A stretch of DNA of 56,236 nucleotides from Denitromonas ohlonensis. GTDB taxonomy: Bacteria; Pseudomonadota; Gammaproteobacteria; Burkholderiales; Rhodocyclaceae. The translations under genes and the position numbers were made by a program. This document shows positions 19,306 to 38,456 of this stretch, in pieces; the stretch's first letter is position 1; each line of letters starts with the position of its first letter. The notes under the pieces were generated by a model, which searched no databases, was not told the DNA's origin, and worked only from the letters and a program-made list of their open reading frames with translations. The stretch covers positions 1-56,236 of the forward strand of contig NZ_VMNI01000011.1 in NCBI RefSeq assembly GCF_007625205.1. Reading direction: 5' to 3'.

Positions 19306-20147
19306 CGGGACAGAACGCGTCCGTAAACCCGCCGCGCAAGACGATAGAGTGATGAAGGTAGCAGGCGCTTGGCGGCCCGGTTCAGCCGCATCATCGGCGT
19401 GACCCGGGGGGCATCCGGCGAATGATCGATCAAGGATATCTCCGCCCCCTGCGTTGCAAAAGGCACGGCCTTGATGACCGTCTGATACACCTTGGCGAAC
19501 GGATTCTGCTCAATGGCGGCTTTCAGGTCGGACGGCGCAGCGCGCCAGACTGCGGCGTATTCCGTGTCTTCCGGTTCGCGGCAAACATGCATCACATCGA
19601 TGATCTTGAGGCCAGCACTATTCATCAATGCTTGCATGTTGCGGATACCGAAGAAGCGGATATGAGTCCGGTCAAGCAGTCCCCAGCTCTGGTAGGCGAA
19701 ATCCTCGTTCATCAGACATGCATGGATGACGCAGTGGCCGATATGGGGGAGGGAGACCACTACGGCACCGTCCGTGCTCAGGTGTTGGCTGGCGGCATCC
19801 AGGGTGGCCTGTGGGTCTCTCAGATGCTCGAGTACGTCGCCCGCGATAATCAAGTCGTATTGGATGTCGCTGCCTACGGCGTCCGACCAGGATGGATCAT
19901 CCAGATTGGCTTGGACGACCCGGGTGCAGTGAGGCGACAGGTGAGGCAGGAACTCGTCCATGAGTTCAACCGCCGTCACTTTGCACCCGGCTTCCGTGCT
20001 CAGTCGCCGCGTCACTGAACCGGGGCCTGCGCCCAATTCCAGCACATTCTGGTGGCCCTGAGCCATCGCCACAATGAAATCCGAAGCGTGCTCGCCCTGT
20101 CCCTTGAGTTTGGTGTAGGCGTAGTTTGAAGGCTGGTCAGCGGCCAT
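19302..20147 (-). CDS. Class I SAM-dependent methyltransferase
   Basis: The 281-aa protein has motif I VLELGAGPGSVTRRL near residues 36-50, the post-I acidic TAVELMDEFLPHL, and LIIAGDVLEHLRDPQATL with the IADVLEH-type motif of UbiE/Methyltransf_11-like proteins. The context suggests methylation of a sugar in the glycan. It overlaps the downstream GT2 by four bases and the upstream gene by eleven. A role in capping or decorating the chain is inferred only. Confidence 0.82.
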   Translation of the reverse strand: MAADQPSNYAYTKLKGQGEHASDFIVAMAQGHQNVLELGAGPGSVTRRLSTEAGCKVTAVELMDEFLPHLSPHCTRVVQANLDDPSWSDAVGSDIQYDLIIAGDVLEHLRDPQATLDAASQHLSTDGAVVVSLPHIGHCVIHACLMNEDFAYQSWGLLDRTHIRFFGIRNMQALMNSAGLKIIDVMHVCREPEDTEYAAVWRAAPSDLKAAIEQNPFAKVYQTVIKAVPFATQGAEISLIDHSPDAPRVTPMMRLNRAAKRLLPSSLYRLARRVYGRVLSR

Positions 20148-21096
20148 TCGAGTTCCTGTTTCGACGGATCAAGCGCTTGAGTGTCGTGGGCAGCAAGCGA
20201 TAAAGGGCGTTGATGTATCTTAGCCGACGGCTGCGGCAAAAGAAGCGGTTCAGCGCATGATGGAATGCTGGCGCAATGTCCATCGGGATCGACGTCACTT
20301 CAATCGGCGCGTCGGAGAGCTGCACCGCAAACGGATCGATCAGCCACTCATTGCAATGCACGCCGGTACCGTCGAGACCGATGTTGCTGATCAGAGAGCG
20401 GGCGGGCGCCAGCGACCTGCGTTCGGCCAAGAAGAGGGATGCGTGCCAGCGGATAAACCACGAGTTGTTCTGGCCTGCAATCTGGCCGCGCAGCATGCGC
20501 TCAAAGCCGCCGGGGCCGAGCGAATCGAATCGATGGAGTTGCCCGGTTTCCTTCAGACGCTGAAGCAGGTGTTCCCCGCTCACGTCGAACAGGGCCCAGC
20601 GATCCGCCCATGTCGCCCAACCCCAGCTCATCGGATGTTCCAGCATGACCGTGTCCGAACCGGCGCCAGAACTATCGATCGGGTACATGTAGGCGGAGAT
20701 GGAGCCGACCTGCGGTGTGTCCCGGTAGCGATCGAGCGCATCATTCATATAGGTCAGGAATGTCGGCGCTGTCAGCAGGTCGTCTTCAAGGACGATCACC
20801 TGTCCATATTGGCGGCACAATTGCGTCGCGCCGTCGATGATGGATGCTGCCAGCCCCATGTTGCATTCGCGTTCGACGATCGTCACCGAGGCGAAACCCT
20901 CGGCCGCCCGGATTGCTTCGCGCACCTGTTGGACAGCGGTGCCGTCCCAGTCATCTCGCGGCGCATCCGAGAAAATGTGCAGTGGGGTTGCTTCGGCGAG
21001 CGCGTTGAGCCGAAGCGCCTCCAGCGTACGCCGGGTGTGTTCTGGGCGATTGAACACAAACAGGGCGACCGGTGCATGGTGCGGAACCGAGGTCAC
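20137..21096 (-). CDS. Glycosyltransferase of the HlpA-like / GT2-related sugar transferase group
   Basis: The 319-aa protein starts VTSVPHHAPVALFVFNRPEHTRRTLEAL from GTG 21096. It shows HIFSDAPRDDWDG, the metal-binding VLEDDLLTAPTFLTYMNDAL and the group hallmark MSWGWATWADRWALFD, followed by NNSWFIRWHASLFLAER. GTG 21096 overlaps the TGA of the upstream gene (GTGA) and has AGGAG upstream; a longer frame to 21576 merely overlies that gene. Donor and acceptor are unknown. Confidence 0.82.
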   Translation of the reverse strand: MTSVPHHAPVALFVFNRPEHTRRTLEALRLNALAEATPLHIFSDAPRDDWDGTAVQQVREAIRAAEGFASVTIVERECNMGLAASIIDGATQLCRQYGQVIVLEDDLLTAPTFLTYMNDALDRYRDTPQVGSISAYMYPIDSSGAGSDTVMLEHPMSWGWATWADRWALFDVSGEHLLQRLKETGQLHRFDSLGPGGFERMLRGQIAGQNNSWFIRWHASLFLAERRSLAPARSLISNIGLDGTGVHCNEWLIDPFAVQLSDAPIEVTSIPMDIAPAFHHALNRFFCRSRRLRYINALYRLLPTTLKRLIRRNRNSNGR

Positions 21097-22097: not shown

Positions 22098-22814
22098 TCA
22101 GGGCTTGGGAAGGCTCATGAGGCGCCGGATACGCGCGGCAGACCCGCTCAGACTGATAAGGGTCAGGTAGATCAGCGCGACTGCAATGGGAACCGGGGCA
22201 AACGGCAGTGCAAAAAAAATCAGTAGCGTGTGTCCGTTGAGGGTTCCGAAGATTGCGTAAATGATGCGCACGGCACTTGGCATGCGGGACTGGAGGCCGG
22301 CGGCAGCGGCTGTCGCTGCATTCGCTTCTGACTTCCGATCGAATTGGGTTTGTGCGTATTTCAGTTCCTGGCTTAGCACAGCGTAGTACAGAAACGAAAA
22401 GAGGGCGATACTGCACAGGCTCCACAGTGTGATCGAATCGTGACGAATGCCGGCCGCGATCAGAATCGCGGAGATTTTGGCCAGATCGCTCATGTGATCA
22501 AACCGGAAGGCGTTCCTGGAGACCTTCGACGCCATGCGTGCGACGGTGCCGTCGCAGAAATCAAGCAGGACGGAGAGCGCCCAGAGAAGACAGAACAGCA
22601 CGGCGCCTTCGCGCGTGGCCAGCGCGATAGCCGCGGCGAGAGTGGTCAGGCACGAAAGGCCGGTCAGCAGGTTTGGGCTGAATCCCAGACGGTTGAATGC
22701 GGCCGCGGCGGGGTAGGCAGCCCGATACATGCCGAGCAGCAGCAGGTTGTTCCCGATCGTCTTGTGGTTGGCGTGGGCATCGGAAAAGACCCGGCTGAAC
22801 CAGGAACTGGTCAT
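22098..22814 (-). CDS. CDP-alcohol phosphatidyltransferase family membrane protein
   Basis: The 238-aa polytopic protein carries the family catalytic signature at residues 85-110: D85-F-C-D88-G89-T-V-A92-R93, eight residues, then D106 and D110. The usual Gly ahead of the third Asp is Ala102. These enzymes release CMP from a CDP-linked donor and pass the phospho-group to an alcohol. It starts two bases after the stop of a cytidylyltransferase gene, so the donor is probably a CDP compound made in this block. Given the phosphoramidate-type genes upstream it could transfer phosphoramidate from its CDP carrier, or a separate CDP-alcohol; both are inference. ATG 22814 starts the frame. Confidence 0.87.
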   Translation of the reverse strand: MTSSWFSRVFSDAHANHKTIGNNLLLLGMYRAAYPAAAAFNRLGFSPNLLTGLSCLTTLAAAIALATREGAVLFCLLWALSVLLDFCDGTVARMASKVSRNAFRFDHMSDLAKISAILIAAGIRHDSITLWSLCSIALFSFLYYAVLSQELKYAQTQFDRKSEANAATAAAAGLQSRMPSAVRIIYAIFGTLNGHTLLIFFALPFAPVPIAVALIYLTLISLSGSAARIRRLMSLPKP

Positions 22815-22816
22815 GC

Positions 22817-23578
22817 CTACAGCGCTCTGGCAATTTGTCGCAGGCGTTTATGCGTGACGGTCGATTCCAGGTCGGACACCGTGTCAACCTCGACCCAGCC
22901 ACCATGGATGCCGACGGCCTTCAGGGCGTGGCCGCTGTCGATGAGCAATTGAAGCAGATCCGTCATATAAGCTGATTCGGCGGGTTTGCCACGAATACTG
23001 CCCCCATCCCTGGCACGATGAAACTCGGACTTGAGCTGTTCGATTCCTTTCGCGTTGAATTTCATCAGACCCATGTATTGCCCCTGGATCTCGGCCAGCG
23101 ACCTAGGCGGTTGCCCGATCTCTGTCAGATTGCCATCGGCGTCGATCTTGAGCGTTTCTGCATCGTCCAGCGGATTTTCTGCACGTGCGCGCCAGTAGGC
23201 TTCCCAGTCGTGGTCGATGGTCACGGCAATATCGTGATCGTCCGCCAGCAATGCACGAAGGATGTCTGCAGAATAGACTATGTCCCCATAGGCGATGATG
23301 ATGTCGCCTTCCAGATCCGCCTCGGCGCAGAACAGGGTCCAGACCATGTTGGTTTCGAAATATCGCGGGTTTGTCCGGATAGTGATCCCTTTCGATGGGA
23401 GCATGTCCGCTCGATAGCCGCCGATGAGTGTGATGTCGTCGAGACCGCAGGCGTGGAGCACTGCCAGTTGCCGCTCCAGCAGGGAAGTACCGTCGACGGT
23501 AACCATGCATTTAGGGCGCTCAAGCGTGTAGGGGCGAAGCCGGGTGCCTTCACCGGCAGCAAGAATGATGACCTTCAT
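22817..23578 (-). CDS. Sugar-nucleotidyltransferase-fold cytidylyltransferase, CTP:phosphoglutamine type (Cj1416-like)
   Basis: The 253-aa protein has the nucleotidyltransferase start MKVIILAAGEGTRLRPYT and RPKCMV (residues 1-26), NPRYFETNMVWTLFCAEADL near 70-89, and the metal-binding YGDIVYSADIL with Asp99. The TNMV-x-TLFCA block is shared by LicC-like cytidylyltransferases and Campylobacter Cj1416. In C. jejuni, Cj1416 joins CTP with L-glutamine phosphate to give CDP-L-glutamine. Assignment here rests on this similarity plus neighbours of the other three pathway types (GATase, kinase, glutamine kinase). A phosphocholine or inositol-phosphate cytidylyltransferase role cannot be excluded from the sequence alone. 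Confidence 0.8.
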   Translation of the reverse strand: MKVIILAAGEGTRLRPYTLERPKCMVTVDGTSLLERQLAVLHACGLDDITLIGGYRADMLPSKGITIRTNPRYFETNMVWTLFCAEADLEGDIIIAYGDIVYSADILRALLADDHDIAVTIDHDWEAYWRARAENPLDDAETLKIDADGNLTEIGQPPRSLAEIQGQYMGLMKFNAKGIEQLKSEFHRARDGGSIRGKPAESAYMTDLLQLLIDSGHALKAVGIHGGWVEVDTVSDLESTVTHKRLRQIARAL

Positions 23579-24213
23579 GACGTTCCATCCAGACCGAATA
23601 GGCGACGCGCCTCAGCGTGGTCCTGTTGAGAAAACTCGGTTTCGCGCTCCGGATGCCACATCCACCCTTTCCATGGCAGTGAGGCGTGACGAATGGCTTC
23701 GATCCCTTCGTCCTCCGAGCAGGCCGAGACCTTAAATTGTGCCGGGCATGATCGCAAGCGCCAGTCGTGGTAACTGTTGACCTCGCGGGATTGTCGCTCG
23801 CACGTGAACTTGACGAGGTGCCGCGTACCGGCGTGGTTCTTGACAGGTTCGAGTTCGGCGCCAGCAAAGACGCCCATCATTTGCATGCCGCGGCAAATGC
23901 CGAGCAGGGGCAGGCGTCGCCCTTGCGCCATGGTCAGTAGCATCGTTTCGGTCTGATCCCGGTCGGCCATGGCACCGATGTCATTACCGCCGGAGAGCAC
24001 AATCCCGACAGGATCATGGCGTTCAACCCAAGCGCGCAGGATGCCACTGGCACACAGATTGTTCGGGACGGGCACGGGGAGAGCACCGAGCGAAGCGATC
24101 CACGCCACCATGCGCTGGTCGAGCGCGTCGCGCCGCTCGCCGCGATCATGAATGACGTCGATTCGCTGGCTGACCAGGATGACTGGCGCGATGTCGGTGG
24201 GTCCGTCCGTCAT
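23575..24213 (-). CDS. Class I glutamine amidotransferase-like hydrolase (gamma-glutamyl-CDP-amidate hydrolase, Cj1417-like)
   Basis: The 212-aa protein has a GATase triad: nucleophile Cys107 in LLGICRGMQM, and His187 and Glu189 in MWHPERE. Also seen are VLSGGNDIGA around 72-81 and REVNSYHDW near 147-155. Automatic annotation would likely say gamma-glutamyl-GABA hydrolase. In C. jejuni the homologous Cj1417 cleaves CDP-L-glutamine to L-glutamate and cytidine diphosphoramidate. It overlaps the cytidylyltransferase start (ATGA), which supports a joint pathway. Confidence 0.82.
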   Translation of the reverse strand: MTDGPTDIAPVILVSQRIDVIHDRGERRDALDQRMVAWIASLGALPVPVPNNLCASGILRAWVERHDPVGIVLSGGNDIGAMADRDQTETMLLTMAQGRRLPLLGICRGMQMMGVFAGAELEPVKNHAGTRHLVKFTCERQSREVNSYHDWRLRSCPAQFKVSACSEDEGIEAIRHASLPWKGWMWHPERETEFSQQDHAEARRLFGLDGTS

Positions 24214-24998
24214 GGTTTCGTGGCGATCAGGACATAGATGTTGCAGAACTGATCGGGAAAATAGCGCATCATGAAACGCTGCAACAGGCTGCCCAGTGGG
24301 GACAGACGGTAGCCTTCCTTGCGCGCCAGGTTTTCATCGAAGCGCTTGTGATGGCGGGCCCTGAAGAACGCGAACTTATACAGGATCGGCATATTCTCGA
24401 CCGGGTCGATCGAGTCCACCATGAAGCCGACCCGCTCGAACAAGGCCCGAAACTCCCGTTTGGTGAGATTCATCTTGTGGAAAGCCTTGCCGCTCGAGGA
24501 ACCGGTTTGCCGTGACTTGCGATTCGCCAGCCAGTCGACGAGGCGAGTCTGGATATTGTCGGCACGAAACGAGGCGCAGACCCGGCCGCCCGGCCTCAGG
24601 ACGCGATAAGTTTCCTCGACTGCCCGCTCAAGCCCGTCCTGGAGATTGTGAAACAGACCGAAGGCCAGCACATAGCCGAATTGTGCGTCTGCAAATTCGA
24701 GTGCCGTAATGTTGCCGGTGTCGACCTTGAGGGTGGCATCCACATCGCGCAATTTGTCGATGGCAACTTGAATGTAATCGATGCCGGTAATGTCATAGCC
24801 GAGCTGGTGGTAGTACCTGAGGATTCGGCCAGCCCCGCAACCTGCCTCGAGAATGGGTGCGTCGCGATCGGTAATCGCTGCCTGCGCGTACTTGAGCGGA
24901 TAGACTGAGGTATTGGTCATCGCCTCGTCCGCCGGAATTTCGCTCCAGCGGCGCTCCCAATAGTCTTTGACGTCCTGATTTCTGTAGGTTATGCGCAT
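24210..24998 (-). CDS. Class I SAM-dependent methyltransferase (possible Cj1419/Cj1420 counterpart)
   Basis: The 262-aa protein starts MRITYRNQDVKDYWERRW, followed by TNTSVYPLKYAQAAI, motif I ILEAGCGAGRILRYYHQLG, then GIDYIQVAIDKL and VLAFGLFHNLQDGLERAVEE. The NQDVKxYWxxRW opening is like the methyltransferases of Campylobacter phosphoramidate loci as I recall them. There, two methyltransferases are linked to forming the O-methyl group of MeOPN; only one is adjacent here. ATG 24998 is used; a longer frame to 25247 only overlies the upstream gene. Confidence 0.78.
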   Translation of the reverse strand: MRITYRNQDVKDYWERRWSEIPADEAMTNTSVYPLKYAQAAITDRDAPILEAGCGAGRILRYYHQLGYDITGIDYIQVAIDKLRDVDATLKVDTGNITALEFADAQFGYVLAFGLFHNLQDGLERAVEETYRVLRPGGRVCASFRADNIQTRLVDWLANRKSRQTGSSSGKAFHKMNLTKREFRALFERVGFMVDSIDPVENMPILYKFAFFRARHHKRFDENLARKEGYRLSPLGSLLQRFMMRYFPDQFCNIYVLIATKP

Positions 24999-25008
24999 GG
25001 TTGGTGAT

Positions 25009-25770
25009 TCAGTCCCGATGCCGTTCCGATTGGCCGAGGATGGCCAGATGCTTGAGCACCGGATGAATGATGTAGTACGTCTCTCCCCCGGTACTGGCCG
25101 GTAGTTCGACGGTCCAGTGGCCGCATTTGCGCCAGGCCTTGAGGGTGTCAACCAGTACGCTGGCGCGGGTGGCTGCATCATACACATGGTCGATGCGTGT
25201 TCGGTCACCCGGCGCCGGGAAGCGGCGCCGGGTGATGACCGGGCCACTGTCGATCTCGGCGGTCAAGAACAGCGATGATGCGCCCATCTGACCTTCCGCC
25301 AACAGACTGTAGTAATTCGTCGTACTGCCTTTGAAATCGGGCAGGTACCCGCCATGCACATGGAGAAACTGCTTGCCTGTGCGCAGGACGGCGTCACGCA
25401 GCAGCGCGCCACCAAACCCGGAGAAAACCAGAACCTCCGGCGTGCATGCCGCGATTAACCCGATGGTTTCCGGCGCATTGATGTCCGCAACCGGACTCAC
25501 GTCGTATCGGATGCCGAGCCGATCTAGCCAAGGGCGCAAAGGCGCGGTCGGATCGAATGCGCTTTCGGGCCATGCCGGATCGCAGGCGACCGCGTTGCTT
25601 ACAGAGGCGGCCTGGCCCGGTCGGGATTCGTCCTGGTGGGTTTCGAGCAGTAGCACCCACGTCGGGAGCAGGTCGTTGCGTTCGAGCGCACTGAGATAGG
25701 CTCGCGTGCGCGACGTGTCAGCGGCAATCATGCCGAATTCAGTCGTGCCCAAGGCGAATCCCCTGTTCAT
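25009..25770 (-). CDS. Formyltransferase-domain protein (Formyl_trans_N-like)
   Basis: The 253-aa protein has the folate-dependent formyltransferase site: LHVHGGYLPDFKGSTTNYYSLL near residues 138-158 (the HxGxLPxxxG motif) and a downstream SSLFLTAEIDSGPVI segment with the conserved Asp. It is too short for a tRNA formyltransferase and lacks the C-terminal OB domain. Such enzymes in glycan loci formylate amino sugars with N10-formyl-THF. Here it is embedded in the phosphoramidate-type block, so the substrate could be an amino sugar or an intermediate of that path. The start may be ATG 25731 instead of 25770, which overlaps the upstream gene by 32 bases; neither has a strong ribosome site. Confidence 0.8.
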   Translation of the reverse strand: MNRGFALGTTEFGMIAADTSRTRAYLSALERNDLLPTWVLLLETHQDESRPGQAASVSNAVACDPAWPESAFDPTAPLRPWLDRLGIRYDVSPVADINAPETIGLIAACTPEVLVFSGFGGALLRDAVLRTGKQFLHVHGGYLPDFKGSTTNYYSLLAEGQMGASSLFLTAEIDSGPVITRRRFPAPGDRTRIDHVYDAATRASVLVDTLKAWRKCGHWTVELPASTGGETYYIIHPVLKHLAILGQSERHRD

Positions 25771-26428
25771 TGGCTAGGCGTGTGATGGCATTCAGCTCAG
25801 TGGCGACCGAGAGGCGCACACCGTCGGCCGGAAAGGCGTTGGTCAGGCGCTCTGGCGGCAGTGAAAGAAGCAGATCGTTGAGCTTGAGCAGCGTGCTCAG
25901 ATGCTGAAGCTGCGGCTGCACGTGCCAGGCCAGCGCCAGGGTGAGCGAAAACAGGGCGTAGAGACGGATGTCGTCGTTCGGACCATCGCCCTTTCTGAAA
26001 CCGGGCGGATAGCGCTGGTACAGCTTTTTGCTGACTTCGAATCGCTGCGTGAGCCGTCGTAGCCAGAACGCCCGGGCGGCCTCGTCGCGCTGGGCAAACT
26101 GGGCATCAAAAAGAGCTTCGAGCAGTTCGGATGTCTCGATCGTGGCGTCAACCGAAAACGAGTCGAGTGGCCGGAGGTCTGCGGATGGTTTGTCTTGGCC
26201 CGCCGCGTCCGGCGCAATCCGGATGCCGAGGTTCGATAGTGCAGGGTCTTGCAATGCCCCTGTCACGCGAGCGGCGTCGTCCCCGCCTGGGGCGGATCCG
26301 GGCAGAGCATCGCAGCGCGCGCGGCGATCGGCCATGTACGCGGTGAGAAAGGCTTTTCCGCCGAACCGGGCGTACATGTATTTGTGAGGCTGCTCGAGGC
26401 GGTCCTCGGCGGTGTAGTCGTAATTCAT
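25739..26428 (-). CDS. Unrecognised 229-aa protein in the phosphoramidate-type block
   Basis: The product begins MNYDYTAEDRLEQPHKYMY and shows no family motif I recognise. There is no signal peptide or membrane segment. The N-terminal 110 residues hold a low-complexity stretch (LPGSAPGGDDAARV), and the C-terminal half is predicted helical by eye (LFDAQFAQRDEAARAFWLRRL, LYALFSLTLALAWHVQPQLQHL). It is coupled to the kinase upstream by an ATGA overlap and overlaps or abuts the formyltransferase gene. The tight packing implies a role in the same pathway, but none is assigned. Confidence 0.8.
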   Translation of the reverse strand: MNYDYTAEDRLEQPHKYMYARFGGKAFLTAYMADRRARCDALPGSAPGGDDAARVTGALQDPALSNLGIRIAPDAAGQDKPSADLRPLDSFSVDATIETSELLEALFDAQFAQRDEAARAFWLRRLTQRFEVSKKLYQRYPPGFRKGDGPNDDIRLYALFSLTLALAWHVQPQLQHLSTLLKLNDLLLSLPPERLTNAFPADGVRLSVATELNAITRLANEQGIRLGHD

Positions 26429-26937
26429 GGCTGCGGCTCGAATCGGTCCGCGATGCTGGGGGCATGCGCCAGCAGCTGCGCCAGCGTTCCCGAGTTGTCG
26501 ATGTAGAGGTCAGGGTTTTCAGGGGCAGGGAATTCCAGGTCCAGGCCTGCGACCTCCTTGATCTCACCGCGCATATAGCGCGCGTAGAGTCCTTTCGAGT
26601 CCCGATCGGCGAGTGTCTTGATCGGGGTGTCGATGAACACTTCGAAGTAGTTGCTCAGATGGTCCCGACACCAGCGGCGGGATTCCGGGAATAGCGAAAG
26701 AATGGCGCAAACCACGTCGATGCCCTGAGCGTCGAGAAAATCGCACAGGCGGCAGATACGGTCGGCATTTGTCTTGCGATCGGCCAGGCTGTGTCCCAGG
26801 TCGTTGCCATACAACTCACGGATTCGGTCGCCATCTAGGATGACGATTGGACGGCCTCGCTCGCGCACGTCCTGAGCGATTCTCTCGGCAAGGGTGGTCT
26901 TGCCGGCACCGGAGAGGCCAATCAACCAGACAACCAT
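26425..26937 (-). CDS. APS-kinase-like P-loop kinase (cytidine diphosphoramidate kinase, Cj1415-like)
   Basis: The 170-aa protein reads MVVWLIGLSGAGKTTLAERI with the P-loop at residues 7-15, then VILDGDRIRELYGNDLGHSLADR and VCAILSLFPESRRWCRD, closely like adenylylsulfate kinase. In C. jejuni Cj1415 looks the same but phosphorylates the ribose of cytidine diphosphoramidate, a step that mirrors PAPS formation. No sulfate assimilation genes (cysD, cysN, sulfotransferases) are nearby, while the other phosphoramidate enzymes are. ATG 26937 has GGGAG upstream, eleven bases after the glutamine-kinase-like stop. Confidence 0.83.
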   Translation of the reverse strand: MVVWLIGLSGAGKTTLAERIAQDVRERGRPIVILDGDRIRELYGNDLGHSLADRKTNADRICRLCDFLDAQGIDVVCAILSLFPESRRWCRDHLSNYFEVFIDTPIKTLADRDSKGLYARYMRGEIKEVAGLDLEFPAPENPDLYIDNSGTLAQLLAHAPSIADRFEPQP

Positions 26938-26948
26938 GTTTCTCCCGT

Positions 26949-29318
26949 TCAGTGTAGGGGGCGGATCAGTCCGGCCGCGCAATCGAGGGTAATTCGCGAA
27001 GCATGGCTGAAGGCTTCGAAGCGTTGCTCGCCGCATCCGATGGCAGCGGGAATGCCGAACTCGGCGCAGCGAATCGCCATATGCGAGTTTGCGCCGCCGT
27101 ACTTGGTCATGAGCCCCGCGATACGCTGCGAAAAGATCCAGTCGAAGCCGGGGTCAGCATTTTCGATGAGAACAATCTTGCCGTCCAGTGAAACCATGGC
27201 ATCGTGGGTGCCGAGCAGCACCACTTCGGCCGATGTCTGTTTGGCAGTAATGAAGTTCGGCTGGCTGACCTGGAACGGGATCACGTGCACCCCGGCCTCG
27301 TCAAAAAGGACCTGAGGTAGCCGGATGGCGGTGGTAAGCACGTGACGTTCGGCTTCGGCCTCTGAGATCGTCCGTAGCCGTTCTTCGATCGATTGTTCCG
27401 CGCTGCAGATGGTCGATTCCAGGATGTACTCAATGGGGATGTGCGACATTTCCTCGCGACTCAAGCCGTGCTGTTCACCGAAGCCGGCGATGATCTCAAG
27501 AATGGCGCTAACCGAGCGGGTAAAGACGAATTTGCCGTATTCTCGGCCGGCGATGGCGTCGGCACAGTAATCGAGCAACGTGTTGGCCGATACGCCATCG
27601 AGTTGCTCGGATCGGAGGAGTCCTTCAAGAGCGTCTCGTTGTGAGGGACCGAGTTGAAAGGGCGCGGGCGCCGCGTCCATCTTGGGGGGCGGGGTCGTCT
27701 GACCAACGGAGAAATCCTGCATCTGGTCGTACCTTGGCGACAGAACGTCGTAGGTGCCCGGGCGCAGGTGGCCGTAGCGTTCCATGAACCACGAGTAATC
27801 GCCTTCGCCCGCCTGCAGCTTGCGCATGTCGTCCACCAGGTCGCCAGCAATGGTCTTTACGCTTGATTGAAAACGCGCCACATCGCACTCGGAGAAAATG
27901 CCGCGTTCGGCCAGCGAGAGAAGTATGGTGCGGGCGATGAACCCGTGTCGGGCGAGGACAGCGAAAGGCACTGTGCCGAATTGAATGCAGTCCTCAATCA
28001 GCTTGTTCAGGCCCATGGCACTTCCGTCCACCTCCGGCATCGTGCGTTCGGAAAGGCGTTGGATGCTGGCCAGAGCGGATGGAATGCTTCCGGGGCCTTC
28101 TCCCCGCAGAAGGGGTAGCGTCATCGCTTTGACGCTCTCGCGAAACTGCACACGTTGTTGGGGCGTCAGCGCATCGGCCACGAGTCGGTCCAGCTTGTCG
28201 TCCAGATCAAAGCTGAAAGTGGTGATGGCGACGTCGAATTCGATCTTGTCGTGTAACTCGGGATGCGCTCGAAGTTTGTCCGTCCATGCGTTGACCAGTG
28301 ACATGGCGATCACGTCCGGAAGGTCCGCCGGCAGGTACGAATGAAAACTCAGGCGGGTGTCTATGAAAGGCTGTCCGGCCAGAGAGACCATCAGGGGCTG
28401 GCCGTCGGGGATCGCATATCCCATCAGTTGTCTCGCTTGCCGCCACGCACTGTCGGTAATCAGGCGTCGGTAGAGCGAGAAGGAGAGCGCACGGGGTGCG
28501 CGGCCGATCATCTCGGCGGGATTCCAGTCGGGCATCTGTCCGAGGACCGAGCGTTCACCAAAGACGCCAGCGCAGGGCCTGAAGCGCTCTCGTACGAAGC
28601 GGGTGATGCCCGCGAGGGCCTGGTCGATGCGTCGGGTAACGGCGCGGTTCCAGTTCGGCTGGGTCGTGATTGCCCTGACCTGGAGCAGGAACGGCTTGAG
28701 GCCCGCGCCGAGGGCGAACTCGATGTCGAGGAACTGGCTATTCATGACCTGCTCGAGTTCCTGGACAGCATCGAGTAAGGTGTTGAAGCGTTCTGATCTG
28801 AGCGATCCGGTCGCCCCGCGGTGGATGTAGAGTGTGCGGTTAGCGTATTCACCATCTCCGCCGGTCACCGTGTTCGTCAGTCCCGAGACGTCGTCGTAGT
28901 TGATGACAAAGTAGGGCGCGCCGGTGTTCAGGTCGTGGGTGAAAATGACGCCACTCATGGTGGTGTCGCACAACATGATCTGGACGATGATTTCGTCCTC
29001 GGTGGCGTTGCGCTTGTTGGGCTTGTAACTGGCGACGACCGTATCGAGTGCACGACGGATTTGCTCGGCGTCTGTTGAATCGACGTTGAGCACCGAGTCA
29101 TAAGCGCCGGCGTTGGATTGCTCTGCGCCATCCTCGTCAGAGGCTGATGAGCGAATCACCAGCATGACCTCGCCGAACTGCTTCTGAATCAGGGCCAGCA
29201 CCGACGATGACGAACTCTGGTATTCCTTGACGGTGACGCTGAGAAAATCGGGTATGTCGAACTTCGAAATTCCGCCCTTCAGAGATATCAGCGTTTGCGC
29301 CTTGGAGGTTTTTTTCAT
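26949..29318 (-). CDS. PEP-synthase-like ATP-grasp phosphotransferase (L-glutamine kinase, Cj1418-like)
   Basis: The 789-aa protein has an N-terminal ATP-grasp domain similar to PEP synthase/pyruvate phosphate dikinase (LVIRSSASDEDGAEQSNAGAYDSVLNV near 50-78, SGVIFTHDLNTGAPYFVINYDD near 128-149), and a C-terminal swivelling domain with the phospho-accepting histidine near residue 746 in KYGGANSHMAI followed by EFGIPAAIG. The PEP/pyruvate-binding TIM barrel is absent, so it is not PEP synthase. C. jejuni Cj1418 of this build phosphorylates the amide nitrogen of L-glutamine. It leads the phosphoramidate-type block. Start GTG 29321 is possible one codon upstream; no strong ribosome site is seen. 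Confidence 0.84.
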   Translation of the reverse strand: MKKTSKAQTLISLKGGISKFDIPDFLSVTVKEYQSSSSSVLALIQKQFGEVMLVIRSSASDEDGAEQSNAGAYDSVLNVDSTDAEQIRRALDTVVASYKPNKRNATEDEIIVQIMLCDTTMSGVIFTHDLNTGAPYFVINYDDVSGLTNTVTGGDGEYANRTLYIHRGATGSLRSERFNTLLDAVQELEQVMNSQFLDIEFALGAGLKPFLLQVRAITTQPNWNRAVTRRIDQALAGITRFVRERFRPCAGVFGERSVLGQMPDWNPAEMIGRAPRALSFSLYRRLITDSAWRQARQLMGYAIPDGQPLMVSLAGQPFIDTRLSFHSYLPADLPDVIAMSLVNAWTDKLRAHPELHDKIEFDVAITTFSFDLDDKLDRLVADALTPQQRVQFRESVKAMTLPLLRGEGPGSIPSALASIQRLSERTMPEVDGSAMGLNKLIEDCIQFGTVPFAVLARHGFIARTILLSLAERGIFSECDVARFQSSVKTIAGDLVDDMRKLQAGEGDYSWFMERYGHLRPGTYDVLSPRYDQMQDFSVGQTTPPPKMDAAPAPFQLGPSQRDALEGLLRSEQLDGVSANTLLDYCADAIAGREYGKFVFTRSVSAILEIIAGFGEQHGLSREEMSHIPIEYILESTICSAEQSIEERLRTISEAEAERHVLTTAIRLPQVLFDEAGVHVIPFQVSQPNFITAKQTSAEVVLLGTHDAMVSLDGKIVLIENADPGFDWIFSQRIAGLMTKYGGANSHMAIRCAEFGIPAAIGCGEQRFEAFSHASRITLDCAAGLIRPLH

Positions 29319-29425: not shown

Positions 29426-30472
29426 TCAGCCAGAACCCGGCTTGACGAGCCGCTGCAATGCTTTGGTCGCCAAACGCAAGTATAAGCCGCTGGCTACGTC
29501 CATGTTCTGCCCCAGCGAAGCAAACAGTGCCTTGCGCACGAACCCAGACGTCGAACTTGCGTTCAGGCCAAGGTAGTTCTCGATCATCGCGCGCTGTTCC
29601 GTCGTGACTGAATCAGCGGGATTGGCGAGCAAGCGATGCAGACACATATAGCGGTCGATGTCCTCTTCATCGCCGTAGTCCCGCAGATCCTGCGCACCGT
29701 CGCATACCGCATCCGATCCCTTGATCATGTATGTAGGAGGCTGCCCGTAAAGGAAGAAGGGGATGCCAGCTTCCATCAGATAGTAGGTGTGCGAGCCGAT
29801 GGTAGGGGAGCAGGCGTACCGGAACTGCCTGCTTATGGTGTAAAACCGGTCCACGAAGCGAGTCGAGTTTGATGCACCCGCAGTGACAAGTGGAAAACAA
29901 TACTGGCGAAGCTGTTTGTGTGTGCCCTTTCGAATGTCATGAAACGACAGGCAGATAACAATGGGATGAAACTGTCGGGGCAGTGCGCGAAGTTCATCCA
30001 TGTAAGCGTCGAGCGATTCGAATACGGGCGTCGTTTTTGCATTCGAATGGGTGAAGAACACGATCGTCCCCGCCCTGTTTTCGGGAAGAGATGGGAAATA
30101 TGCTCTGCGATACGCGACCCACGGGTGAGGGATAAATATCGCGTTTCGCCCATGGCGCTCGCGCATCAGGCGTGCCTTTTTCTCGTTCCAGCTCAGAAAT
30201 AACTGGAACTGAGACTCGATCTCGTTAGGCCAGCAGCGCGATTCCCAATGAACGCCGTGATCTGAGCTTGCACAGATTGGCAGCCAAGACGGGTAATTGA
30301 GCCACCAACGGAGTGTCTTTCCAAAGCTCGAATTTTCGCTTTCCCATGAGGCCCATGGCGCGTGGCCCGCCTCGGACTTTCGCGTCAGAGTAGTCAATGT
30401 TTGGAGCGTAGTGTCGCTAAACCCCTGGAGCGCTGCCTGAGCCAATGTTTGTTCGTTTACCTTTGTCAGCAC
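29426..30472 (-). CDS. Unassigned 348-aa protein, possibly a GT-B-like transferase
   Basis: No family is clearly recognised. The sequence has an order of blocks seen in some capsule transferases: LPICASSDHGVHWE near 64-77, FIPHPWVAYRRAYFP near 113-127, TIVFFTHSNAKTT near 137-149, and TIGSHTYYLMEAGIPFFLYGQPP near 223-245, the last like the nucleotide-binding G-S-x-x-x-E-A loop of GT-B or glycerophosphotransferase folds. There is no signal or TM segment. It overlaps the end of the upstream amidotransferase by seven bases and is followed by a 107-base gap before the glutamine-kinase-like gene. Base composition is visibly less GC-rich than the flanks. Confidence 0.8.
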   Translation of the reverse strand: MLTKVNEQTLAQAALQGFSDTTLQTLTTLTRKSEAGHAPWASWESENSSFGKTLRWWLNYPSWLPICASSDHGVHWESRCWPNEIESQFQLFLSWNEKKARLMRERHGRNAIFIPHPWVAYRRAYFPSLPENRAGTIVFFTHSNAKTTPVFESLDAYMDELRALPRQFHPIVICLSFHDIRKGTHKQLRQYCFPLVTAGASNSTRFVDRFYTISRQFRYACSPTIGSHTYYLMEAGIPFFLYGQPPTYMIKGSDAVCDGAQDLRDYGDEEDIDRYMCLHRLLANPADSVTTEQRAMIENYLGLNASSTSGFVRKALFASLGQNMDVASGLYLRLATKALQRLVKPGSG

Positions 30473-31710
30473 GGCCAGCCTTTGCCAATCGTGATGAACT
30501 TGTCGCCCGCATCGAGTCCGCGTGTGTGCGTCGCGATGAATGCTGCAGAGGAAGACGGAGTGCGCGGTGCGCCATTGTCATGGGGAATGTGTTGTCGCGC
30601 ACTCCAGCCGTTGAAAACCCAATGTCCTGACGATTCTTCATGCCAGTAGTCCGGGTTGCGGTGTTGATCCAGTATGAAGCGCAGGGCGGTCGGTTGCAAA
30701 CCCAGCCATTCGCAAAACAGGTCCACATGTTCAGGCGCCTTCTGTTCGTGATGTCTGACCAAATCAAGGCCCTGTGCTCGCGTGAGCCGCCCGTGCCGAA
30801 TTTCTCGCGTGGCATGATCCGTAACCTTGGAATACCCGTGTTTGAATAATTTGAGCTGATCATGCAGGTCCATGTAGCTGAAACACTCCACATGGTCATA
30901 GGTGTCAAATGTTCTCTCGAAACGGGCTGACGCATAGTTGTAGAGCGAGATCATGTCTTCATGCTGAGCCTTCGGATCCCAACGAACGAAATTGCCAATA
31001 TAGATACCTCGCACACCCACAGAACTGAGTGCTTGATCATTGGGATAGCGAAACTGACTAATATCGCGCTGTTTTAGCGTATCGAACACCGAGGGCAAAT
31101 CGTCCGCCTCATAGCCCATAAGATCGTGGTCCTTTCGATATCTCCGTGTCATCTCGACTTCGTGCAGGTGGGAGAACATGCCGACCTGCTCAAGACCCTG
31201 GTGCGCGCCCCAGATGATCAAGGGGATTCGGTAGCGAACAGCCGTTTGTACAGGAAATACGCTTTGACCGGCCAGAATGGGCCAGAACATGCTGCCAAAA
31301 CGGCGCAGGGTGCTCCTGACGATACGACGCACGGATTCCGGATTGACGTTCTGATAAAGAATGTCGCAGTTGAGTCGGATGCGCAGATTGGCAAGATTGC
31401 GAATGCCCAGCGGGGTATTGAAGTAACGGTTGTATGTAACGAGCAAGGGATTGAGTCCCAAGCGTTTCTTGACGAGATGTACTATGTAATAGGAGTCGTT
31501 GGCTCCAGTCACCGGGACCACGCAATCGTAATTGCTGCCGTTTGGATTGCGGTAGGGTTCGACCAGTTTCTCCAGTCGTGACCACCGTTCTTGCCAGTCC
31601 AGCTGATCCTTTTCTTGATGTACCCGGCAGCCCGAGCAGATTCCGTCTTGGTCTATGGTCAGGCCGAGGGGGTGAGCTGTCGTATACAGGCAGCGCTTGC
31701 AAAACTCCAT
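30466..31710 (-). CDS. N-acetyl-sugar amidotransferase family protein with atypical PP-loop (WbpG/PseA-like)
   Basis: The 414-aa protein starts MEFCKRCLYTTAHPLGL with CxxC pairs at 4/7 and 25/28 (CSGC) as in this family, then EPYRNPNGSNYDCVVPVTGANDS. The PP-loop that normally reads SGGxDS is TGANDS at residues 68-73. Family members (WbpG, PseA) activate an N-acetyl sugar with ATP and, with ammonia from a HisH-like partner, form an acetamidino group. The HisF/HisH-like genes and a second copy with a normal loop lie directly upstream. The C-terminus extends some 35 residues beyond the usual 375-380. Confidence 0.85.
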   Translation of the reverse strand: MEFCKRCLYTTAHPLGLTIDQDGICSGCRVHQEKDQLDWQERWSRLEKLVEPYRNPNGSNYDCVVPVTGANDSYYIVHLVKKRLGLNPLLVTYNRYFNTPLGIRNLANLRIRLNCDILYQNVNPESVRRIVRSTLRRFGSMFWPILAGQSVFPVQTAVRYRIPLIIWGAHQGLEQVGMFSHLHEVEMTRRYRKDHDLMGYEADDLPSVFDTLKQRDISQFRYPNDQALSSVGVRGIYIGNFVRWDPKAQHEDMISLYNYASARFERTFDTYDHVECFSYMDLHDQLKLFKHGYSKVTDHATREIRHGRLTRAQGLDLVRHHEQKAPEHVDLFCEWLGLQPTALRFILDQHRNPDYWHEESSGHWVFNGWSARQHIPHDNGAPRTPSSSAAFIATHTRGLDAGDKFITIGKGWPC

Positions 31711-31713
31711 GCC

Positions 31714-32493
31714 TCAGAATTCCTTGCTTGTGCTGGCGCCGACGTAGGCTGCGGGTCGAATCAAATCGCTTTCTACTTCACGCTTGTACATTTGATACGC
31801 ATGTTCCCGATAGGTAAACAGGTTGCCCACAGCGACCGCAGCGACGGCCGGGTGTTGGTAAAACCGGCGAGTTGTCGTGGGATCTGAAAAGCCGCCAAAG
31901 AGAATAAGTGGTACCTGAGGGATCGGCAATGGGTCAAGTTGTTCGGGCGTCAGGTGGGTTTCCCCACCATCGTGCTTCCAATCGATGAGTACGAGTTCGG
32001 AAATGACTCGCTGTGAGATAAGTCCAGGGATCACATCACCAAAGGGCCTTTCCTGCTGGGTGACATAGTCCAGCCGCCGGAGGCCTTGGCTGAAGTTTAT
32101 TGGGACGGCTCCGATGATCGCCTGCGCACCGAGCCTTGCAGACATTTTCCGCACCTCGTCAGTCGCGTGGTGAAGCGCGTAGTCGACACAGATCCTGTCG
32201 GCTCCCAGCTGGATCGCTCGAGTGGCGTGCTCTTCCGTTGCAATGCCGCCAGCATAAATCAACGGCGTTTCAAGACCGAGTTTCCCGACGCGGGCGAGCA
32301 TGTCGAAATCAGGCCCCATTTCGCCTTTGCTCCGGTCAATGGCTTGCACAAGAATCTCGTCGGCGCCCCATCGGTCGAGGTTTTCGACGAGACACTCCGG
32401 GCGGCCAATGGGCAAATGACGGTTGTATCCAAACGACTGCACCGCCCAGCCGTGGCGTACGGTGACGACACCCACGAGCCGCTTTTTAAGCAT
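31714..32493 (-). CDS. HisF-like subunit of sugar amidotransferase
   Basis: The 259-aa TIM-barrel protein resembles imidazole glycerol phosphate synthase HisF: RLVGVVTVRHGWAVQSFGY replaces the usual RIIPCLDVxxGRVVKG, while GADEILVQAID, TPLIYAGGIAT, GADRICVDYAL and LILFGGFSDP follow the barrel order. In O-antigen loci such as the P. aeruginosa wbp cluster, HisH2/HisF2 feed ammonia to WbpG. The loss of the exact HisF phosphate-site sequence and the absence of his genes argue against histidine synthesis. ATG 32493 has AGGA upstream; the frame overlaps the HisH-like stop by eight bases. Confidence 0.88.
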   Translation of the reverse strand: MLKKRLVGVVTVRHGWAVQSFGYNRHLPIGRPECLVENLDRWGADEILVQAIDRSKGEMGPDFDMLARVGKLGLETPLIYAGGIATEEHATRAIQLGADRICVDYALHHATDEVRKMSARLGAQAIIGAVPINFSQGLRRLDYVTQQERPFGDVIPGLISQRVISELVLIDWKHDGGETHLTPEQLDPLPIPQVPLILFGGFSDPTTTRRFYQHPAVAAVAVGNLFTYREHAYQMYKREVESDLIRPAAYVGASTSKEF

Positions 32494-33097
32494 GGGCAAT
32501 ATCCTGGATCAAGGTTCGCAGGAGAGACGTACCTGCGCGCTGGCTTTTCTCTGGGTGGAACTGGAGGCCAGCGATACGTCCGTGACGAACTGCGGCGGTG
32601 ACGGGGCCCGGAACATGGGTCACGGCCGAGACATGCTCGGATGCCCCATCGAGTGCAAACGAGTGATTGAAGTAGAAGAATTCGCCGTGGCTGCTGTGAA
32701 GCGCTGAGTCAGACATGGTGCATTTGAGGCTGTTCCATCCGATATGCCAGGGTGTGTCACGTAAGGGGATGACTTTTCCGGCAAGGATGCCCAGGCCTTT
32801 CGAATGCCCCATTTCAAAAGACTCTTCCGCCAGAAGCTGCATGCCAAGACAGATGCCGAGGAGCGGCCGATTGGTCTTTGCCGCGTTACGCAAATAGACG
32901 TCAAGGCCAGTGTCCCGCAATTTTTTCATCGCCGATGGAAATGCTCCGACGCCGGGCAGCAACAGGACATCACATGCATCAAGCACCGTCGAATCGCCGG
33001 CGAGGCGCACGCGAAATCCTGCGTCATGGAGCGCGTGGGTGACCGACGTCAGGTTTCCGACGCCGTAGTCCACAAGGCCGACAGTGAGGCGGTTCAT
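32486..33097 (-). CDS. HisH-like glutaminase subunit of sugar amidotransferase
   Basis: The 203-aa class I glutaminase has VGLVDYGVGNLTSVTHAL, LLLPGVGAFPSAM, nucleophile Cys83 in LLGICLGMQLL, the WHIGWNSL oxyanion/tunnel region and the C-terminal LQFHPEKS with the His/Glu pair. It would release ammonia from glutamine for amidination of an N-acetyl sugar. It overlaps both neighbours (ATGA with the amidotransferase upstream). Confidence 0.92.
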   Translation of the reverse strand: MNRLTVGLVDYGVGNLTSVTHALHDAGFRVRLAGDSTVLDACDVLLLPGVGAFPSAMKKLRDTGLDVYLRNAAKTNRPLLGICLGMQLLAEESFEMGHSKGLGILAGKVIPLRDTPWHIGWNSLKCTMSDSALHSSHGEFFYFNHSFALDGASEHVSAVTHVPGPVTAAVRHGRIAGLQFHPEKSQRAGTSLLRTLIQDIAHA

Positions 33098-34221
33098 AGT
33101 CCCACGCCCACGCGGAATCGGCGCTTTATGCTTCCATCGCTGCCAATGTCAAACAAGTCGCGGTTGGTCGAGGCATGAACGTGCAACCAGAACTGATCGG
33201 TGGAAATGCCTATGAAATCACAGAAGCTCTTAATGTAGCGCGGCGAGCACCGACCATCGTAGCGCTCGACCAGATCCACAGCCGTGGCTCGATCCACTGT
33301 GCCGGCGCGCATGGCTTCATTGACATACTCAGTGGTTTTGCCGAAACCGAATTTCAGATATTTCACCATCTGATTCATGTTGTGCCAGTCCTCGTCAAGA
33401 TTGCTCAAGCCGAGAAGGTCCCCGGTCTCACCTGGATGTTCGTTACGAATACCGAGCCCATGTGAGCATGCGTAGCCGGCGTTGTTGACAAGGCTCCAGT
33501 CGCCGAGAAACCAACCCAGGAACACGATCTGGATGTTGGCTGAATCAAACTCCGATTCACCCGGGTAAATGTACGGAATAATGTCTTGAGCCGCGTAGCC
33601 CCCGCTCAGCATCCAATCGTGGCCAGAACTCAAGGTGTTGGAGTTGCGCAGATTGTTTCCGTCATATCCGTTTCGCCCCATGGTCTTCAAGTCCCCAACT
33701 TGAAGTGCCGGGTTTTCTCCCCAGAAGATCAAGGGGATTCCATATCGAATCGCCAATTGGGGTACTGAGCTGAACAGGGCAAGCTCTGACGAACGCGCCC
33801 AATTGGAGAACTTCATGAAACTGTCATGCATTAGTCTCCGCCACGTCTCTGGGGCGGGGGACGACAAGACCACATCGAAGCCGAGATTGATCAGGTTGGA
33901 TACGTTGTCGACGCCAAGATCCGAGACCTGTTGCGGTGGGTGACTTAATGAAACAAGCAAGGGGGTCATATCCAGCTTGTCACGCACCCACAATGCTTGT
34001 CTTGTGCTGTCTTTGCCCCCGCTGACCCCGATGATGCAGTCGAAACCGTCGGGGCCTGTACCGCGATAGGGTGCGACGAGGTCTTCGATAATCTCGTGGC
34101 GCTCCTGCCAGTCAATGTCGCGCGCCGTCTCGAAGTAGGCACACGCAGGACACTGACCATCGGGTGTAAAGACGGAGTTGGGGCGCGTGTCGGGCTGCAA
34201 ACAGGTCGTGCAGTATTTCAT
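33094..34221 (-). CDS. N-acetyl-sugar amidotransferase (WbpG/PseA-like), canonical PP-loop
   Basis: The 375-aa protein starts MKYCTTCLQPDTRPN with paired Cys motifs (CTTC, CPAC at 24/27), followed by the ATP-pyrophosphatase loop IIGVSGGKDSTRQA (SGGKDS at residues 67-72). It ends in the usual family length. It should adenylate an N-acetyl group and exchange the oxygen for ammonia, giving an acetamidino sugar such as on pseudaminic acid or ManNAc3NAcA. ATG 34221 is chosen by family start and by ATGA overlap with the upstream methyltransferase; the longer frame to 34377 is an overlay. Confidence 0.92.
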   Translation of the reverse strand: MKYCTTCLQPDTRPNSVFTPDGQCPACAYFETARDIDWQERHEIIEDLVAPYRGTGPDGFDCIIGVSGGKDSTRQALWVRDKLDMTPLLVSLSHPPQQVSDLGVDNVSNLINLGFDVVLSSPAPETWRRLMHDSFMKFSNWARSSELALFSSVPQLAIRYGIPLIFWGENPALQVGDLKTMGRNGYDGNNLRNSNTLSSGHDWMLSGGYAAQDIIPYIYPGESEFDSANIQIVFLGWFLGDWSLVNNAGYACSHGLGIRNEHPGETGDLLGLSNLDEDWHNMNQMVKYLKFGFGKTTEYVNEAMRAGTVDRATAVDLVERYDGRCSPRYIKSFCDFIGISTDQFWLHVHASTNRDLFDIGSDGSIKRRFRVGVGL

Positions 34222-35171: not shown

Positions 35172-35198
35172 GATTCAACGAAAGTAAGGGATGCCATT

Positions 35199-37749: not shown

Positions 37750-38456
37750 GCGGCGTCCTGGTGGCGCTGTCGCAGGGCGAAGCAGGCCTCGGCCATGGCC
37801 AGGTCTGCCGCGTCATCGATGTCGACTGCGGACGTCCAGTCCATGGGAAAGAAGATGTGGCCGGGCAGGTAGAAGTTCTCGCCGCCAACGAACGCGTCTC
37901 GCTGAGCAAGCCACAGCGCACCTGTCGGGCAATACAGAGACGGCAGATCTTGCGAGCGTGACTGACGCGCCTCCGGGAATACCCAGTCCGGTTGCCCGTC
38001 CGGCGCCAGCTTGACGGCCCACCAGGGGTTCATCCAGCCGAACTTGAAGGCGCTGATCTGTGATGGAGCGCCACTGTCATGGAAATGCGTGACGCCGGCC
38101 CTGACGTCGTCGGCGTTGCGCAGTGGGCAGTTGGCCATCAGTTGCGCCACCACATCGTAGCGTTCGTTCCAGTATGTTTCGGCCTGCTCGAGCGCAATCC
38201 GGGTCGCCGCACTCGACGGTGACTGGTCGTCCGCTGCCCGGTCGCGGAGAAAGGGCACTTCCGCGCCCGCTGCGATCGCTGCCTGGGCGATTTCTTCGTC
38301 ATCAGTTGAAACCAGAACGCGCTGGAAGCAGCCCGAGTCGAGGGCAGCACCGACCGACCAGGCTAGCATCGGGCGGCCGCCAAAGGGCATGACATTCTTG
38401 CGCGGCAGGCGTTTTGATCCGCCGCGGGCAAGGATGATTGCGATGCGTTGTGTCAC
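37746..38456 (-). CDS. pseF: Acylneuraminate cytidylyltransferase family protein (pseudaminic acid cytidylyltransferase)
   Basis: The 236-aa protein has IAIILARGGSKRLPRKN near the N-terminus (the CTP-binding loop), PMLAWSVGAALDSG, VLVSTDDEEIA, LMANCPLRNADDV and CPTGALWLAQRD. It activates a nonulosonic acid as its CMP form. PseF is favoured over a neuraminic or legionaminic enzyme because of pseB, pseC, pseG/H and pseI in the same array. Translation probably begins at GTG 38456, which overlaps the upstream TGA (GTGA) and has GGAG six bases before; GTG 38459 is one codon longer. Confidence 0.87.
   Translation of the reverse strand: MTQRIAIILARGGSKRLPRKNVMPFGGRPMLAWSVGAALDSGCFQRVLVSTDDEEIAQAAIAAGAEVPFLRDRAADDQSPSSAATRIALEQAETYWNERYDVVAQLMANCPLRNADDVRAGVTHFHDSGAPSQISAFKFGWMNPWWAVKLAPDGQPDWVFPEARQSRSQDLPSLYCPTGALWLAQRDAFVGGENFYLPGHIFFPMDWTSAVDIDDAADLAMAEACFALRQRHQDAA

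Follow-up and report, generated by a model that had tools for sequence, protein, structure and literature searches.

In Campylobacter jejuni, which has a capsule with O-methyl phosphoramidate (MeOPN), the four enzymes Cj1415-Cj1418 make cytidine diphosphate (CDP)-phosphoramidate 3'-phosphate, according to the sections we draw on of a 2025 paper that, in those sections, names no enzyme for the MeOPN methyl group (PMC11800397). Cj1418 was once annotated as phosphoenolpyruvate (PEP) synthase or pyruvate phosphate dikinase (PPDK) (excerpt of PMC10971088), and MeOPN genes are reported for 13 of 30 Campylobacter strains (excerpt of PMC3907429). Phosphoramidate without the methyl group is on record in the lipopolysaccharide (LPS) of Xanthomonas and Shewanella (excerpts of PMC3907429, PMC8042644 and PMC3210612). 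The relevant section of a 2019 review describes the modification as so far identified in Campylobacter only (PMC6429109), while in that of a 2022 review the glutamine kinase is termed specific to C. jejuni (PMC9561416). Among the matches listed in the open-access literature, titles and abstract openings contained no description of these genes outside Campylobacter. Here, we describe a block of eight genes at positions 22098-29318 of a 56,236-nucleotide stretch (the window) of Denitromonas ohlonensis, order Burkholderiales (assembly GCF_007625205.1, contig NZ_VMNI01000011.1). On sequence grounds, this block very likely represents a diversified cytidine-diphosphoramidate pathway that is widespread outside Campylobacter.

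The block is encoded on the minus strand, from 29318 down to 22098, and consists of the following genes:

26949..29318, minus strand: GlnK, predicted L-glutamine kinase (Cj1418-type), by NF004508 and PF01326 plus PF00391; a GTG at 29321 is an alternative start.
26425..26937, minus strand: APSK, P-loop protein, predicted cytidine-diphosphoramidate 3'-kinase (Cj1415-type), by PF01583 and the kinase tree.
25739..26428, minus strand: ORFx, predicted all-alpha protein of a family without a name that is tied to GlnK loci, by genome distribution and a structural model.
25009..25770, minus strand: FmtL, formyltransferase-fold protein with the catalytic N-x-H changed to H-x-H, by PF00551 and a fold match.
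24210..24998, minus strand: S-adenosylmethionine-dependent methyltransferase outside the MT4 family (see below), by PF08241.
23575..24213, minus strand: GAT, class I glutamine-amidotransferase-like protein, predicted gamma-glutamyl-CDP-amidate hydrolase (Cj1417-type), by NF045546 (below cut-off) and the catalytic triad.
22817..23578, minus strand: CTase, LicC-like, predicted CTP:phosphoglutamine cytidylyltransferase (Cj1416-type), by the LicC structure 1jyk and conserved residues.
22098..22814, minus strand: CDP-alcohol phosphotransferase family membrane protein, candidate phosphoramidate transferase, by PF01066 and its signature.

With preferred starts (that of APSK is a chosen one), neighbouring genes overlap by at most 32 bases or are separated by at most 11 bases, and because these overlaps and gaps are so small, the block looks like one operon. 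A sequence-only reading of this DNA had placed four adjacent core genes here, encoding a PEP-synthase-like protein, an adenosine-5'-phosphosulfate (APS)-kinase look-alike, a glutamine amidotransferase (GATase) and a LicC-like cytidylyltransferase, plus a methyltransferase. All of them are present on the minus strand, but the four are not adjacent, as ORFx, FmtL and the methyltransferase separate the kinase from the GATase.

The block would make an activated phosphoramidate that is then placed on a surface glycan. GlnK would act as L-glutamine kinase and feed CTase, which would use cytidine triphosphate (CTP) to form CDP-L-glutamine; the GATase would hydrolyse the latter to glutamate and CDP-NH2, and the APS-kinase look-alike would put a 3'-phosphate on the product. 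We derive these four core steps from family membership and the published biochemistry of Cj1415-Cj1418, and are fairly confident that the block makes the CDP-phosphoramidate core.

GlnK scored 832 bits (cut-off 501) in the NCBIfam scan with NF004508, which we take to be the Cj1418 family, versus 60 bits for the best PEP-synthase model; these scores, which stand in for a tree with PpsA, argue against a place among the PpsA proteins, a grouping proposed as a refutation. As had been claimed, the PEP-binding barrel (PF02896) is absent: Pfam shows only PPDK_N (PF01326) and PEP-utilizers (PF00391), and the protein is made up of PPDK_N, a middle domain and a swivelling His domain. Across the window protein and eight relatives (n = 9), no variation is seen at the His of G-G-x-N-S-H-M-A in the swivel domain or at an Arg, Glu, Asp and Gln within the ATP domain. 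Elsewhere, the genome encodes a PpsA-like protein, in which the same Pfam search found PF01326, PF00391 and the barrel; GlnK resembles it over 71 residues only (33%). For GAT, the gamma-glutamyl-CDP-amidate hydrolase model NF045546 was the best of 18,950 models with 97.5 bits, below its 250-bit cut-off. All ten GATs scanned (the window and nine from other loci) matched this model at E ≤ 1e-5, and the Cys/His/Glu triad is invariant in 10/10 sequences. CTase has LicC (1jyk) as its nearest solved structure, matched no specific Pfam or NCBIfam model, and carries the likely active-site residues R13, K23, D99 and D232, invariant in 10/10 sequences. The active-site check that had been suggested was carried out among relatives from GlnK loci, and in these the residues of GlnK, GAT and CTase are intact.

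The APS-kinase look-alike, too, stands apart from other APS-kinase domains. In a quick tree search on few columns, with long branches flagged where the two sets meet, a single branch (SH-like approximate likelihood-ratio support 100) parts 88 GlnK-linked kinases, the window's included, from 30 other APS-kinase domains, so the grouping with true CysC that had been proposed as a refutation is not seen. The comparison domains came from 30 loci out of 41 PF01583 matches listed elsewhere in the order; they were taken as CysC by their high scores, partner domains having been checked for this genome's own protein alone. Three positions follow the split: position 97 is Tyr in 88/88 GlnK-linked kinases and Phe in 30/30 others; position 71 is Gln in 85/88 versus Ala in 24/30; and position 129 is Val, Met, Leu or Ile in 86/88 versus Phe in 27/30. 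In APS kinases, a Phe of this last loop stacks on the adenine. The genome has its own CysNC-like protein, separate from the window APSK, which scored 244 bits with the same model that gave 132 bits for APSK.

To define how widespread such loci are, one genome per species (84,980 genomes) was scanned. At least 527 GlnK relatives were confirmed by tblastn, of which the best 80, by tblastn against a single GlnK (locus L030), were examined. Many of these 80 loci are metagenome bins, and they span many phyla: Pseudomonas, Dechloromonas, Zoogloea, Aeromonas, Marinobacter, Methylobacter, Azospirillum, Prochlorococcus, Opitutales and other Verrucomicrobia, Bacteroidetes, Acidobacteria, Nitrospina, Eubacterium and Treponema. 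Within the genus, full-length GlnK was found in this genome only (1/10), and within the order in 11 of 399 genomes at E ≤ 1e-50, ten of them over the curated cut-off. In the ten other GlnK genomes of the order, relatives of the GATase, cytidylyltransferase and kinase share a 17.7-19 kb stretch with GlnK, the GATase of L038 being weak (E 7e-4; 1.3e-11 by hidden Markov model, HMM). Plasmids gave some GlnK match in 64 of 72,556 records, with at least 80% of GlnK covered in 14, and two scans of viral contigs detected neither GlnK nor CDP-alcohol phosphotransferase relatives.

Eight plasmid loci, ten from the order, 80 from the species scan and the window together form a set of 99 GlnK loci. The gene-caller table missed genes on high-GC DNA (L037 and L101 appeared without GlnK), and gene counts are those by HMM within an 8 kb radius, with E limits that are looser or stricter depending on the family. 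The neighbourhood maps that had been suggested show GAT near GlnK in 95 of the 99 loci, CTase in 94 and APSK in 88; the CTase count may take in other nucleotidyltransferases (115 matches in 94 loci), and absences in some loci mean little because these are short or cut by a contig end. The idea of a cytidine-diphosphoramidate pathway outside Campylobacter is well supported at the family level, by the GlnK model match, the kinase tree and the gene neighbourhoods. Annotation names seen in GlnK loci include pyruvate phosphate dikinase or PEP-utilizing enzyme, adenylyl-sulfate kinase, gamma-glutamyl-gamma-aminobutyrate hydrolase (GAT) and phosphocholine cytidylyltransferase (CTase). With at least 527 relatives in 84,980 species, natural phosphorus-nitrogen (P-N) bond chemistry may be frequent on bacterial surfaces and hidden under such misannotations.

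Several loci show variant arrangements. An Agrobacterium vitis plasmid (L017:11902-16991) has GlnK-GAT-CTase-LysE-CDP-alcohol phosphotransferase; APSK was not found there, and the annotated genes around the block include none for glycans. This locus may make a small phosphoramidate. On a Vibrio alfacsensis plasmid (L013:8472-17009), a divergent cysD/cysN pair lies beside GlnK-GAT-CTase, followed by a PF04464 protein, and neither tblastn nor HMM found an APSK-like gene. In Pseudohalocynthiibacter (L015:11143-14352), the GlnK frame is extended at its N-terminus by a CTase-like stretch (24.9% over 209 residues), a possible fusion. Two Prochlorococcus contigs (L065 and L087) both carry GlnK-GAT-CTase, L087 with APSK and MT4 in addition. 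GlnK is spread over more than one reading frame in L033, L038 and L039.

The loci fall mainly into two types. The methyltransferase MT4 (for example L040:9230-9976) is present in 73 of the 99, at most 1.5 kb from GlnK in 65 of them, in a sample that favours MT4-type loci because its best 80 were ranked by tblastn against the GlnK of L030. ORFx occurs in 15 loci, FmtL-like proteins in 19, and neither MT4 nor ORFx in 11. All 15 ORFx loci have FmtL, 14 have APSK and none has MT4; the window is of this ORFx-FmtL type. The four FmtL-like proteins that lie in MT4 loci appear to be formyltransferases, either ordinary or distant ones. Mutual exclusion of MT4 and ORFx is total among the 99 loci (Fisher 3.6e-11, ignoring relatedness). 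At the level of the order, ORFx is found in 5/399 genomes, all among the 11 with GlnK (hypergeometric 5.6e-9, likewise blind to relatedness), and strong MT4 matches (325-381 bits) occur in another 5/399, namely five other GlnK genomes, beside GlnK. The remaining MT4 matches reach 136 bits at most and include those of two ORFx genomes (G127 and G351), located on other contigs. The eleventh GlnK genome (G282) has neither MT4 nor ORFx, and has a window-type methyltransferase. On a quick GlnK tree, the ORFx label changes seven times, with at least six changes forced by starred branches, so the swap between MT4 and ORFx seems to be repeated. Pseudomonas-type loci show this clearly: CTase is followed by APSK-MT4 in L083 and L084, and in L076-L078 by a larger methyltransferase (f29) with FmtL, ORFx and APSK on the other strand.

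The window's methyltransferase (24210-24998) has close relatives (E ≤ 1e-15) in only two of the other 98 loci, L035 and L095. A methyltransferase other than MT4 lies near in 8 of the 15 ORFx loci (six with f29; two, L095 and the window, with the window type), and methylation may therefore persist in the ORFx type. Based on gene content, MT4 is a candidate for the methylation step of the phosphoramidate, and thereby for the methyl step of MeOPN itself; it would probably act next on the product in most relatives examined. In the window, ORFx and FmtL, perhaps together with the unrelated methyltransferase, would tailor the P-N group in place of MT4, a swap that we favour on balance and that suggests that the methyl step is exchangeable. 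The product had been described as MeOPN-like: its phosphoramidate core is supported, yet plain MeOPN is improbable, since the usual methyltransferase is missing from the window.

ORFx has 229 residues and matched nothing in Pfam (three members searched), NCBIfam or the sequences of solved structures (window protein searched); PHROGs gave one weak match (0.0044) in one of nine members. Its AlphaFold2 model, built from nine sequences, is all-alpha with a mean predicted local distance difference test (pLDDT) score of 76, and yielded no convincing fold in PDB (best E 0.035) or BFVD (0.11). FmtL belongs to PF00551 and matches the fold of the ArnA formyltransferase domain (E 1.2e-11). In 15/15 ORFx-linked proteins, it has H-x-H for Asn-x-His, with the later Asp kept; the Asn was aligned via GAR transformylase, and we take it to be the catalytic residue of N-formyltransferases. 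This Asn-to-His replacement suggests that ORFx-FmtL is probably an enzyme with altered chemistry, which probably acts on the P-N group or on a nucleotide form of it; an amino sugar of the same glycan is a possible substrate. One specific version, which we find rather unlikely, is that ORFx and FmtL acylate (e.g. N-formylate) the phosphoramidate nitrogen or its CDP-activated form instead of O-methylation, with the CDP-alcohol phosphotransferase transferring the product. If true, natural phosphoramidate glycans would fall into two chemical classes, this second one being made by a widespread pathway that has so far been linked to Campylobacter. Among the matches listed in the open-access literature, we found no description of the ORFx-FmtL pair as a tailoring system. 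A second, different formyltransferase-like gene is located just past CTase in three ORFx-type loci (L036:6228-7256, L037:6180-7190 and L038:1070-1960).

For the transfer step, the best local candidate would be the CDP-alcohol phosphotransferase at 22098-22814, which starts 2 bases past CTase. It scored 37.4 bits with PF01066 (cut-off 22), is one of three PF01066 proteins in the genome and has five hydrophobic windows, two of them overlapping. Its motif, DFCDGTVAR...A...D...D, agrees with what we take to be the family signature (D-x2-D-G-x2-A-R-x8-G-x3-D-x3-D) except for Ala at the Gly position, which our pattern allowed. The A. vitis PF01066 protein stands after GlnK-GAT-CTase and a LysE gene, and resembles the window protein weakly (E 0.002 over 42 residues). 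A transferase common to all GlnK loci was looked for and not found; PF04464 (CDP-glycerol-phosphotransferase-like), sulfotransferase-like and PF01066 proteins occur instead. By HMM, PF04464 is present in 8/15 ORFx loci, Pfam having named the family on the member from L076, and Pfam also finds it in L088. Members of PF01066 and PF04464 usually transfer a phosphate-linked group from CDP, a reaction for which CDP-NH2 would be a suitable donor. Sulfotransferase-like genes lie near GlnK at L088:14901-15599, L108:3651-4277 (below the Pfam cut-off) and L012:16845-17939, and this fold would suit a transferase because a 3'-phosphonucleotide donor would fit.

The acceptor would probably be a sugar of the neighbouring O-antigen or capsule, seemingly one with a pseudaminic-type nonulosonic acid. 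In the surrounding window, Pfam identifies NeuB, a CMP-sialate-type cytidylyltransferase (CTP_transf_3), a DegT aminotransferase, Polysacc_synt_2 dehydratases and a GNAT protein, and further an ABC transporter, a WecA-like enzyme, WbpM-like genes, GT2 glycosyltransferases and HisF- and HisH-like proteins; NCBIfam adds a WbuX amidotransferase. Together, these genes suggest that the nonulosonic acid is of pseudaminic type and bears an amidino group. At 30466-43140, the WbuX and HisF/HisH-like genes lie beside NeuB, CTP_transf_3, DegT, GNAT and Polysacc_synt_2, together with an aldo/keto reductase, a GFO_IDH_MocA oxidoreductase and an SDR protein, which may amount to an amidino-type nonulosonic acid pathway with additional redox enzymes. 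The Pfam scan of 34 window proteins, a part of the window's open reading frames, gave no sulfate, pyruvate or putrescine gene, in agreement with the claim that none are nearby.

A role in true sulfate and PEP metabolism, with the kinase as CysC and the large protein as PEP synthase, would fit the Pfam names, and cysD/cysN do adjoin GlnK in V. alfacsensis. In that locus, however, no APSK-like gene was found by tblastn or HMM, and the NF004508 score, the missing barrel, the kinase tree and the genome's own CysNC-like and PpsA-like proteins elsewhere make this explanation extremely improbable. Somewhat less remote, though still improbable, is the production of CDP-NH2 or CDP-glutamine for a small diffusible molecule instead of a surface glycan. 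The A. vitis locus, where LysE exporters, a TauD-type dioxygenase and an aminoacyl-tRNA-ligase-like gene are nearby and no glycan gene is annotated, points in this direction, as does the Cupriavidus taiwanensis GlnK close to nif genes; the window block, on the other hand, sits among glycosyltransferases, NeuB, CTP_transf_3, the DegT aminotransferase and WecA/WbpM-like genes, and other GlnK loci also have annotated glycan genes alongside.

With regard to tailoring, FmtL and ORFx could formylate an amino sugar of the glycan backbone and not the phosphoramidate, their link with GlnK reflecting shared cassette ancestry. FmtL folds like sugar N-formyltransferases, amino sugars encoded by such glycan loci are often formylated, and the phylogenetic pair test on MT4 and ORFx (see below) is underpowered. 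We nevertheless consider backbone formylation doubtful, though possible: ORFx is confined to GlnK genomes (5/5 among 399), its label changes repeatedly on the GlnK tree (seven changes, at least six forced), otherwise similar Pseudomonas-type loci have either APSK-MT4 (L083, L084) or ORFx-FmtL with APSK (L076-L078), and FmtL is without the formyltransferase catalytic Asn in 15/15 cases. The transfer step is evenly poised. We give 22098-22814 an even chance of being the phosphoramidate transferase, and no smaller chance to its making an ordinary phosphodiester or lipid, with 20137-21093, 33094-34377 or 29426-30472 as the true transferase. The latter explanation gains from the transferase-like family of 8/15 ORFx loci being PF04464 and not PF01066, from the lack of HMM relatives of 22098-22814 in the other 98 loci (E ≤ 1e-5), from the single weak relative among 299 other genomes of the order, and from the three alternative genes having no Pfam family. 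It loses from the position of 22098-22814 directly past CTase and from the PF01066 protein that also follows GlnK-GAT-CTase in A. vitis. Of the alternatives, 29426-30472 is considered less likely, as its relative sits in a genome (G034) outside the 11 GlnK-positive ones.

Other observations weigh against a diversified, widespread phosphoramidate pathway. No Campylobacter locus is among the best 80 of the at least 527 relatives, NF004508 carries just the name 'hypothetical protein', and the window GAT lies far under the NF045546 cut-off. GlnK has no GAT, CTase or APSK within 8 kb in C. taiwanensis (L014), where it lies on a plasmid near nif genes, and Microvirga lotononidis (L016); as it stands alone there, its family may serve further purposes, perhaps with phosphoglutamine put to some other use. 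Eleven of the 99 loci yielded no APSK; some of these are cut by a contig end, while those of A. vitis, Vibrio and Pseudohalocynthiibacter are intact. Both the kinase and GlnK trees are quick ones with long branches flagged. When loci were paired on the GlnK tree, MT4 and ORFx were opposite in 2-4 independent pairs and went the same way in none (median p 0.25), so that with only 2-4 informative pairs the opposition is not significant after phylogenetic pairing. Finally, the 2025 paper, in the sections we draw on, leaves Cj1419 and Cj1420 without an assigned function, and knocking them out had no apparent effect (PMC11800397), so that the methyl step is unproven even in C. jejuni.

Compared with Cj1415-Cj1418 of the C. 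jejuni MeOPN capsule, the window has the same four enzyme kinds in one surface-glycan locus and adds ORFx, FmtL, another methyltransferase and the CDP-alcohol phosphotransferase, the likeness being one of enzyme kind. The LPS of Xanthomonas campestris and Shewanella is a further surface glycan outside Campylobacter that bears a P-N group; the excerpts drawn on assign no genes to it. FmtL shares its fold and two residues of the active-site motif, His and Asp, with ArnA, Fmt and GAR transformylase (PF00551), but differs in the His at the aligned catalytic Asn (15/15). The MT4-type GlnK loci of Pseudomonas, Dechloromonas, Aeromonas, Verrucomicrobia and others have the GlnK-GAT-CTase-APSK core in common with the window; whereas they carry MT4, the window has ORFx-FmtL beside APSK.

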